From contig NC_049982.1 in the NCBI RefSeq assembly GCF_000003815.2, positions 12,420,043 to 12,484,042 on the forward strand: a DNA stretch of 64,000 nucleotides, written 5' to 3'. How positions within the stretch are numbered: the first letter of the stretch is position 1; each line of letters starts with the position of its first letter. Below the pieces are notes generated by a model. That model ran no database searches and was not told the origin of the DNA. It worked only from the letters and a program-made list of their open reading frames with translations. Shown here piece after piece: positions 13,476 to 54,990 of the stretch. A program made the position numbers and the translations under genes. Origin of the DNA: Branchiostoma floridae (Eukaryota; Chordata; Leptocardii; Amphioxiformes; Branchiostomatidae).

Positions 13476-13539
13476 GCACTGGGCAGCTTTTACTTTGTAC
13501 ATGAGTCTATACGAAATGCATCTATATACGATTGGCAAG
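13476..13539 (+). CDS. Inpp5a: Inpp5a exon a (ALGSFYFVHES...)
   Basis: The exon follows ttttatgcag and ends before gtaagt. It is 64 nt, enters in phase 0 and leaves in phase 1. It encodes residues 1-21 of the visible fragment, matching the human stretch ALGSFYFLHES. It is the first exon recognised in the window. Confidence 0.93.
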
Positions 13540-52392: not shown

Positions 52393-54990
52393 CTGCAAAA
52401 CAAAAACAACACTAACGATTAAAAAATGTAAACGAGAAAAGGAGACGCTTTGACGAAATGACACTCACCTAAGATAAAAAGGCAAAAACACGAGGCTTAA
52501 ATAACTTCCGAACAAACATGAAGTCACGTATTAAAGAGATGGGCAAAAGTCGCTAGATGGTGAAGATAGCGCGGTATTGTACACGGTGGTTATTTATCGG
52601 TGTCGATTTTGTACCTACGCACTCTTAGATGCCTGTCCCACGTGTAGTTAGGCGCAACGCACTTCTTCTTGGTGATTGTATGTATGATTCCCTGTCTCAA
52701 TGTCACAATACACACTTCATTCGGTCCCTCCAGGTGTGAATCGGGTCCTTCAAAGGTGGCTGGTATAATTAGCACGAACAAAAGAAATCTTAGAATAAGG
52801 GAAAACAAAATAGCTACGTTTGAGGGCAACGGGGAGCGGGATAAAGCGGCCCATTTATCGACAAATCACCGATCCGGTGTTCCGTTGCTCCCCACACTAT
52901 CTTGACCACCCGCTTAGATGTACAATGCTCCTCGGGCGACGGTTCGAGCTCGCCAACAATGCTACCCAAACATATCGCCCCGTAAAGACCCCTCCGTATT
53001 GGGATCTACAAAAGTCAATTTCGATTAGTTGAACGATTTCATTTTTCCTTGCATTGGCGCCATATTTTCAGCCATTTTGCCATGATCGTTTGACATAGAA
53101 AAACGTACGTGCTATTTGTGTGAAGAGGACGTGAAATGACTTGATCCGCTTTTGTTTTGTTAGGTCCACCGGCTTCAGATCGGATTAAATCCTCCTGAAC
53201 GACGTGTACGGTCCCTAAGAACGTCAGCAGATCCCAAACAATGTAGCCGATATCGGGTATAAGTGACAAGGCGATTAAACACACGAGGTTGAGGGATTGT
53301 GGAAAGCGCCTTGATGATACCCCGACAGGAGCACCGCGTGTTCAGACATCTTCCTCCCGCCGGCGATGATAGGTTCCGGCGCGACTCCCTGACACCGGCA
53401 TGTCGATCAAGAATTAATGGCGAGCCACTGACGGCACTACTAAATTTTCCTTGCGCTACGTCTTCCTCTCTCTCTACATCTATGCATCTTTCTCTGGTGC
53501 GTACCAGAAAAGAAGCCATACAAACGTGGCGGGGACCATAAAATCATTTATTGTCGTAGAAAAACGTCTGGGACTCGACATGCATCGCTCGCTTGGAATC
53601 GGAACGATCTTTTCATGATGCTTCGGCTTTGTGCTGCTCCAATTGTACCTCTGAGATAGCTCTCGGCGAGGTACAGCGTATTGAAAACACTGTAAGGAAT
53701 AAAATCTTTACTAACCTTGACTTGGGATTCCGTCATGCCCAGGGAATAAGCCAGTCTTGCCCGCTCAGGCCCCGCTAGGTACTTCGTCTGCTCAAAAGTT
53801 TTCTCCAGGGCGAATATTTGTTGCCCAGAAAAGGTGGGACGTGTGTGCTTTCTCTTGCCATCCTTGTCTACTGTCACATTGCCAGCTGTACCGTGGGGAT
53901 CTGGAACAGAAAACAACAACAACAGTTTGGAGTTAGAACCATGCTCAAGATCTATAAATGAAACGTGAAGAAGGGAAAGAGCTGCAAATGTTGTCAGTAA
54001 TGTGTAGACTGAATATGTGTAGACAGTAGAGTGAATTTGTCCCAAAGATGAGCATAGAAGTTTTGACGTAATTTGTGAAAACTTGTGCCTTTCAAAATAT
54101 TGTGGAAAATACCACATAGGAAGGAGAAAAATGCATGGAAACCTTAGAAGTCAAGATCTGAACGGTTTCCAAGCTGTTTTTGCGCTAGCTATTTGATGGG
54201 AAATACAAATAAAGCCCGCTGGTTCTGAACACAAAGACACATGGAGACCACCCGTGCGCAGAGGACGGGCATGCCACACGTTAGCGATACTTAGCAACAA
54301 CTTCTATAACTTCTTTGGTTGAGAGCTGGATATTTTTCGTTGTAAGAGATAATAAGGATAATGTTTTAGACATTATAAAGCCACACGATTTATCCTTGAT
54401 ATTCCATCTGGAATCAGATTGAAACGAATTAGTTTAGAATAGAAATTTGGTAGTTTTTCTTGACTGTCTAAAAGCACTGATAAAAGCTCCTTGCTAAAAG
54501 GTTGTAGTATACATGACGGCCGTAAAGGAGGGATGGATGAAAACTTACGAGGTGGACATGCGAATCTGTCTCTCCATCCAGCACCCTGCATCATGCCCGG
54601 CCAGTACATGGACGCCCTGCCGGACAGGTCTCCCAGACCCTTGTCAAACCTCGCCGCCGGGTTGAAGTACATGCCCGCGGCAGGGTTATTCATGTTCATG
54701 TTCAGCCTGGGGATAGTGAAGAGAGAGTTCACGGAGTTGAGCGAGTTGGCCACGGTGACCGGTCGGGAGAGAATGTCCGATATCCCGTACGGCGTGGTGG
54801 CTTGACTGGTGAAGGTGGACAGAGACATGGGCTTGAGGGGGGACGTTGACGTGAAGGAGGGGTACTGGCTGGGACACACCGGGGGAGCGCGCATCTCCGT
54901 CATGTTGTGCAGGGCCGCTAGTGGAGGGTTACTGAGTACGAACGCGCTCTGTCGCGATGCATCCATTCCGGCAGTCTCCGATACAAGCAT
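52129..54990 (-). CDS. Nkx6: Nkx6, NK6-class homeobox transcription factor (complete, three exons)
   Basis: DNA-binding repressor of the NK6 class; in vertebrates Nkx6.1/6.2 pattern ventral neural tube and motor neurons and act in pancreas. Coding exons on the - strand are 54990-54549, 53900-53716 and 52392-52129, giving 891 nt, or 296 residues plus TAG. The N-terminus ([19 protein letters not shown]) is near-identical to vertebrate NKX6. An eh1-like Groucho-binding motif [10 protein letters not shown] is at residues 68-77, and the family motif [11 protein letters not shown] lies before the DNA-binding region. The homeodomain is at about residues 164-223, with [12 protein letters not shown] in helix 3 and Gln at homeodomain position 50. 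The C-terminus is Gln/Glu/Asp/Ser-rich. The first in-frame ATG (54990) was chosen; an ATG at 54966 (MDASRQ, better Kozak context, equivalent to the NKX6-2 start) would give 288 residues. Introns are 648 and 1323 bp. Confidence 0.97.
52393..53715 (-). other. Nkx6 intron 2 (splits the homeodomain at 46/47)
   Basis: 1323 bp, GT-AG on the - strand. It contains a Gli-like GACCACCCG at 52904-52912 on the + strand and many balanced, repeat-free segments. No internal exon was seen. Confidence 0.8.
53716..53900 (-). CDS. Nkx6: Nkx6 exon 2 (homeodomain helices 1-2)
   Basis: Acceptor ctgttccag, donor gttagt, 185 nt. It encodes residues 148-209: the [16 protein letters not shown] leader and homeodomain positions 1-46, with the NK6-specific [19 protein letters not shown] stretch identical to vertebrates from memory. 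Confidence 0.97.
53901..54548 (-). other. Nkx6 intron 1
   Basis: 648 bp, gtaagt to ttccag on the - strand. It contains a Gli-like GACCACCCG at 54246-54254 on the + strand and an AAC-repeat close to the acceptor. Confidence 0.8.
54549..54990 (-). CDS. Nkx6: Nkx6 exon 1 (N-terminal region, eh1 motif)
   Basis: 442 nt encode residues 1-147, with the donor gtaagt after ...FACPP and the first base of His148. It carries the conserved N-terminal peptide, the eh1-like repressor motif and the WPGMMQ motif. The poly-Ser and poly-Ala runs of human NKX6-1 are absent; the linker is Met/Asn/Pro-rich instead. Confidence 0.96.

Follow-up and report, generated by a model that had tools for sequence, protein, structure and literature searches.

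Convergent Inpp5a and Nkx6 in amphioxus as a candidate ancient genomic regulatory block

Inpp5a and Nkx6 lie tail to tail in the amphioxus genome, and the arrangement raises the question of what has kept two such genes together: a regulatory tie between them, membership of Nkx6 in an old homeobox cluster, coupled transcription, or chance. We investigated the pair in a window of 64,000 bp (contig C4, NC_049982.1:12420043-12484042; the whole stretch of DNA analysed, from a host genome of 513 Mb in 431 contigs) and in its flanks.

Gene models of the convergent pair

Inpp5a exons were mapped by tblastn with a human INPP5A sequence, and then by their splice sites. The resulting model has 15 exons on the + strand, encodes 410 aa and spans 133 kb (C4:12326038-12459077); its spliced coding sequence is open for 410 codons, with GT-AG borders at 14 of 14 introns. 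Exon 10 is divergent and was recovered by a splice-phase search, with a score of 36 versus 25 for a reversed-query control. The protein is identical to human INPP5A at 227 of 398 aligned residues (57%) and matches Pfam Exo_endo_phos2 (PF22669, 1.1e-16); its one PDB match, a weak one, is to a 72-kDa 5-phosphatase. Full-length similarity, the 5-phosphatase domain and a CaaX-like end together point to a type I inositol polyphosphate 5-phosphatase. Human INPP5A ends in the CaaX-like CVVQ, and the different last residue of the amphioxus CVVL suggests that a different prenyl group is attached. A broken copy lacking exons 1-4 was considered and rejected, the full frame being found 76-94 kb upstream.

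The Nkx6 model, on the - strand, comprises three exons between 54990 and 52129 and encodes 296 aa; its splice dinucleotides and frame were checked. The protein matches the Pfam homeodomain (1.8e-21), and judging from its sequence the homeodomain is probably Nk6-specific; the genome contains no second close match. No NKX6 chain was present among the 60 of 121 PDB matches listed for the protein. Genome-wide searches indicated that both genes are single copy: 14 of 15 Inpp5a matches fell at the locus and the remaining one had an E value of 0.42, while for Nkx6 two of 48 matches fell at the locus and the remaining 46 were homeodomains no more than 60% identical. The features are as follows, in window coordinates; exons 5-9 and 11-14 of Inpp5a come from tblastn together with the spliced model.

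-94004 to -75897 (window-equivalent), +: Inpp5a exons 1-4, left of the window; first ATG at -94004
1..13475, +: 3' end of Inpp5a intron 4 (spliced model); the whole intron begins 75.9 kb left of the window
13476..13539, +: Inpp5a exon 5
14286..14389, +: Inpp5a exon 6
15622..15674, +: Inpp5a exon 7
20632..20751, +: Inpp5a exon 8
21251..21335, +: Inpp5a exon 9
25296..25388, +: Inpp5a exon 10, divergent (splice-phase search)
25911..25982, +: Inpp5a exon 11
25983..35253, +: Inpp5a intron 11, 9.3 kb (spliced model); candidate regulatory DNA
35254..35327, +: Inpp5a exon 12
35763..35871, +: Inpp5a exon 13
36959..37024, +: Inpp5a exon 14
38949..39035, +: Inpp5a exon 15, coding part and stop (spliced model); protein end CVVL, CaaX-like
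39036..52128, no strand: intergenic span, stop to stop, both 3' UTRs included; candidate regulatory DNA
52129..52392, -: Nkx6 exon 3, coding part; homeodomain end and stop
53716..53900, -: Nkx6 exon 2; homeodomain start
54549..54990, -: Nkx6 exon 1, coding part; first ATG at 54990
54991..64000, no strand: Nkx6 5' flank, part of a 21-kb Nkx6-Nk7 interval; Nk7 lies beyond the window

Inpp5a (+) and Nkx6 (-) are thus convergent neighbours, their stop codons 13,093 bp apart in the gene models. A sequence-only reading of the window had proposed this tail-to-tail adjacency, and the spliced models and single copies genome-wide bear it out. It had also called the genes functionally unrelated; Nkx6 is a developmental transcription factor gene and Inpp5a encodes a signalling enzyme. 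The bounds it gave, 13476..54990, hold on the right, where 54990 is exactly the Nkx6 first ATG; on the left, 13476 is the first base of Inpp5a exon 5 and not the start of the gene. Between the two stops, four long open frames (of 157 of at least 40 aa) had no Pfam match; because only long frames were scanned, a third gene is undetected here rather than proven absent. The convergent order would suit an explanation in which shared or coupled transcription, through co-expression or overlapping 3' ends, binds Inpp5a to Nkx6, but with stop codons 13.1 kb apart and two functionally unrelated genes we consider this highly improbable.

Flanking genes and comparison with vertebrates

On the left, Inpp5a is flanked head to head by Mlh1 (Mlh1_C, 1.4e-95). 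The Mlh1 exons lie on the minus strand at window-equivalent -98153 to -95090 (L009), and a 256-base N gap lies between them and the Inpp5a first ATG; a short promoter region shared by the two genes is possible. On the right, an Nk7-like homeodomain gene lies head to head with Nkx6, ~21 kb off (C4:12496224-12497983, window-equivalent ~76182-77941), followed by a Tlx-like homeodomain (C4:12590274-12590453, -) and an Lbx-like homeodomain (C4:12650199-12650417, +). The top PDB matches of the Tlx-like sequence were an unnamed homeodomain protein (1.7e-38) and TLX2 (7.8e-22), with an engrailed design in between, while Nk7 and Lbx are tentative names given from the homeodomain sequences. Exons of glycosyl hydrolase family 1 are repeated between Nk7 and Tlx (window-equivalent ~105378-134000, in the area of L023-L026); this stretch is 49% self-similar within the region, indicating a tandem gene family inside the homeobox array.

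The order Nkx6 (-), Nk7 (+), Tlx (-), Lbx (+) inside ~180 kb suggests, going by these partly tentative homeodomain names, an NK-cluster remnant with Nkx6 at its end, which is another possible reason for gene order to persist. It may be the NK cluster that is held, and not the pair, with Inpp5a having merely adjoined its Nkx6 end, with or without a few enhancers. The order, for which Tlx is backed by PDB, fits the ancestral order Lbx-Tlx-NK7-NK6 in the reconstructions of Wotton and Chan, as cited in the relevant passages of PMC13088399; other reconstructions described in the same passages put NK6 elsewhere, with Emx. The human genome speaks against this explanation, because there the cluster is broken (TLX1 at 10q24.32, NKX6-2 at 10q26.3, the Nk7 family lost) and INPP5A is still found beside NKX6-2. 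The Nk7 and Lbx names are moreover tentative. We regard cluster constraint as unlikely, although it is, with neutral survival, one of the two main rivals to a regulatory block.

There are three human Nkx6 genes, on three chromosomes. We take NKX6-2 to be the only one of them that adjoins INPP5A, and the two to be convergent in vertebrates, as their counterparts are in amphioxus. The human adjacency given in the sequence-only reading is in print: the relevant passages give the order PWWP2B, C10orf91, INPP5A, NKX6-2, C10orf93, GPR123, KNDC1 (PMC4411697) and INPP5A, NKX6-2, CFAP46 (PMC12453924), and in birds OPNVA, NKX6-2 and INPP5A are described as flanking CFAP46 (PMC10445033). The pair is therefore conserved between two distant lineages, amphioxus in our models and vertebrates (human and birds) through these papers. 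By contrast, the outer flanks differ, being Mlh1 and Nk7 in amphioxus versus C10orf91/PWWP2B and C10orf93 in human (PMC4411697).

Seven families of human neighbours were chosen to compare the wider neighbourhood (JAKMIP, BNIP3, MGMT, KIND (PF16474), FUOM (PF05025), EBF and TUBGCP2), and the comparison covers the first three of them. All three of the compared families from human 10q26.3 are still on C4 with the pair, yet far from 12.33-12.48 Mb: JAKMIP_CC3 has 3 of 3 genome matches at C4:16.17 Mb (3.7 Mb from the pair), BNIP3 2 of 2 at C4:23.07 Mb (10.6 Mb) and MGMT its single match at C4:23.80 Mb (11.3 Mb). Amphioxus-vertebrate linkage units are described, in the part of Simakov 2020 bearing on them, as mostly scrambled in internal gene order.

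These data also bear on neutral survival, in which ancestral neighbours would by luck have stayed unbroken in both lineages compared. Only two lineages are compared, one of them by papers, and the pair was picked by eye, after being seen, among thousands of pairs, some of which persist as neighbours by chance; moreover, how much microsynteny is functional is called unclear in the relevant passage of PMC8851819. Against this, gene order on C4 outside the pair departs from the human order for all three families compared, and the probability that a random C4 gene lies no more than 13.1 kb from a given gene end is ~0.0008, a figure that takes no account of common descent or of how the pair was chosen. 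Taken together, we consider luck a quite unlikely explanation. The pair seems to have outlived the scrambling around it, as expected of a regulatory block with Inpp5a as bystander.

Long introns as candidate Nkx6 regulatory DNA

Inpp5a intron 4 measures 89,372 bp, compared with 248-17,237 bp for the remaining 13 introns; no usable published figures on amphioxus intron sizes were found. Assembly gaps outside the window make its length uncertain, the count of N being 7,914 with 42 unfetched bases included; the exons flanking the gaps keep the correct order and frame, in support of the scaffold. A nested gene was rejected as the cause of its size: the intron contains 925 open frames of at least 40 aa, and the 20 longest had no Pfam match, a scan that short-exon genes would escape. 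Swelling by repeats common to the 264-kb region was rejected as well, the self-similar fraction being 0.037 versus 0.487 in the glycosidase stretch. Ten long open frames from the 39-52 kb, Nkx6-Nk7 and beyond-Nk7 intervals had no Pfam match either, with the same reservation about short-exon genes, and a known structured RNA or tRNA was rejected as no Rfam or tRNA match was obtained in the window and scanned flanks (13 flanking stretches for Rfam). In the ~199 kb between the Inpp5a start and the first glycosidase-like exon, three genes were detected versus ~11 expected from 28,192 loci genome-wide (Poisson 0.005, post hoc, only long open frames having been scanned).

Elsewhere in these spans, a perfect 45-base tandem duplication was observed at window positions 29585-29670, within Inpp5a intron 11. 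A 175-aa open frame at L022:4559-5083 (+) looks by eye like the reverse-transcriptase C-terminal piece of a retroelement, and had no Pfam match.

We propose that the pair is a genomic regulatory block, with Nkx6 as target and Inpp5a as bystander, at least as old as the amphioxus-vertebrate ancestor; the enhancers, contacts and selection that this entails are predicted from gene order and gene structure, and we put the proposal as an even call. Inpp5a may carry regulatory switches for Nkx6, for which the spans above are candidates. Under the proposed mechanism, enhancers acting on the Nkx6 promoter would lie in the Inpp5a 3' flank and in its introns, chiefly the 89-kb intron 4 but to some extent intron 11 (9.3 kb); a breakpoint between the genes would part Nkx6 from these enhancers, and selection would purge such breaks while leaving the outer flanks free to change. 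A regulatory lock of this kind would explain why the pair was kept while its flanks changed and, in vertebrates, Nkx6 left Tlx and Nk7 was lost, and it would explain the apparently gene-poor 89-kb intron. The bystander model of the sequence-only reading is supported in part by the same neighbours in human and birds, the changed flanks, the long intron with no detected gene and the developmental target; that reading had missed the putative NK-cluster end and the fact that the greater part of Inpp5a falls outside the window.

A fuller version of the proposal joins the block to the cluster. Inpp5a would have adjoined the ancestral NK cluster on its Nkx6 side, and the giant Inpp5a intron would be a regulatory landscape of Nkx6 (originally also of Nk7) that survived the breakup of the cluster. 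Vertebrates lost Nk7, and their Tlx went elsewhere, but the Inpp5a-Nkx6 unit would have been kept as its enhancers were inseparable from Nkx6. We offer this version tentatively, as possible though doubtful.

Human genetics provides a further point of contact, as lead variants of a brain-age association lie in INPP5A, with NKX6-2 named too (relevant passages of PMC9883521 and PMC10615751); these signals are compatible with a regulatory block and are not proof of one. If the proposal is true, the bond between Inpp5a, a housekeeping-type gene of 133 kb, and Nkx6, which patterns neural and pancreatic tissue, is more than half a billion years old, amphioxus Inpp5a introns are the DNA pinpointed for Nkx6 regulation, human INPP5A variants such as the brain-age signals become candidates for action on NKX6-2 rather than INPP5A, and a regulatory tie can outlast a homeobox cluster.

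Comparison with known systems

A word search of the amphioxus regulatory-genome paper (main text) returned neither Inpp5a nor Nkx6, and the literature searched yielded no contact or reporter data on the locus. In the literature searched on the INPP5A and Nkx6 names and on regulatory blocks, which did not extend to Irimia 2012, the likeliest source to list Inpp5a-Nkx6, we found no paper treating the pair as a block.

Three systems invite comparison. Ancient metazoan pairs of the Atxn10-Wnt7 type, as presented in parts of PMC8851819, resemble Inpp5a-Nkx6 in that unrelated genes, one of them developmental, are retained together, and regulatory lock-in has been proposed for them; those pairs are backed by many species, whereas Inpp5a-Nkx6 is backed by two lineages, one via papers. 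The bilaterian NK homeobox cluster (PMC13088399) may be represented by the partly tentative order Nkx6-Nk7-Tlx-Lbx adjoining Inpp5a; Inpp5a itself does not belong to the homeobox genes, and the relevant passages do not name it.

The closest parallel in kind is with genomic regulatory blocks containing a bystander, as described in the relevant passages of the Synorth paper (PMC2745767). There the defining feature is that the target is surrounded by an array of highly conserved non-coding elements, and the mean span in mammals is 1.4 Mb; Inpp5a-Nkx6 is likened to such blocks by gene order and gene structure, and its span of ~0.2 Mb is below the mammalian mean. After duplication, several target copies with one bystander are given as a common bystander fate (PMC2745767), and a multicopy target with a single bystander is a further probable likeness here. 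The locus presents a developmental transcription-factor target (Nkx6), an unrelated long-intron neighbour (Inpp5a), a span that may be poor in other genes, and synteny across distant lineages with adjacency over deep time. The class of genomic regulatory blocks is already known, and Inpp5a-Nkx6 is a candidate member of it.
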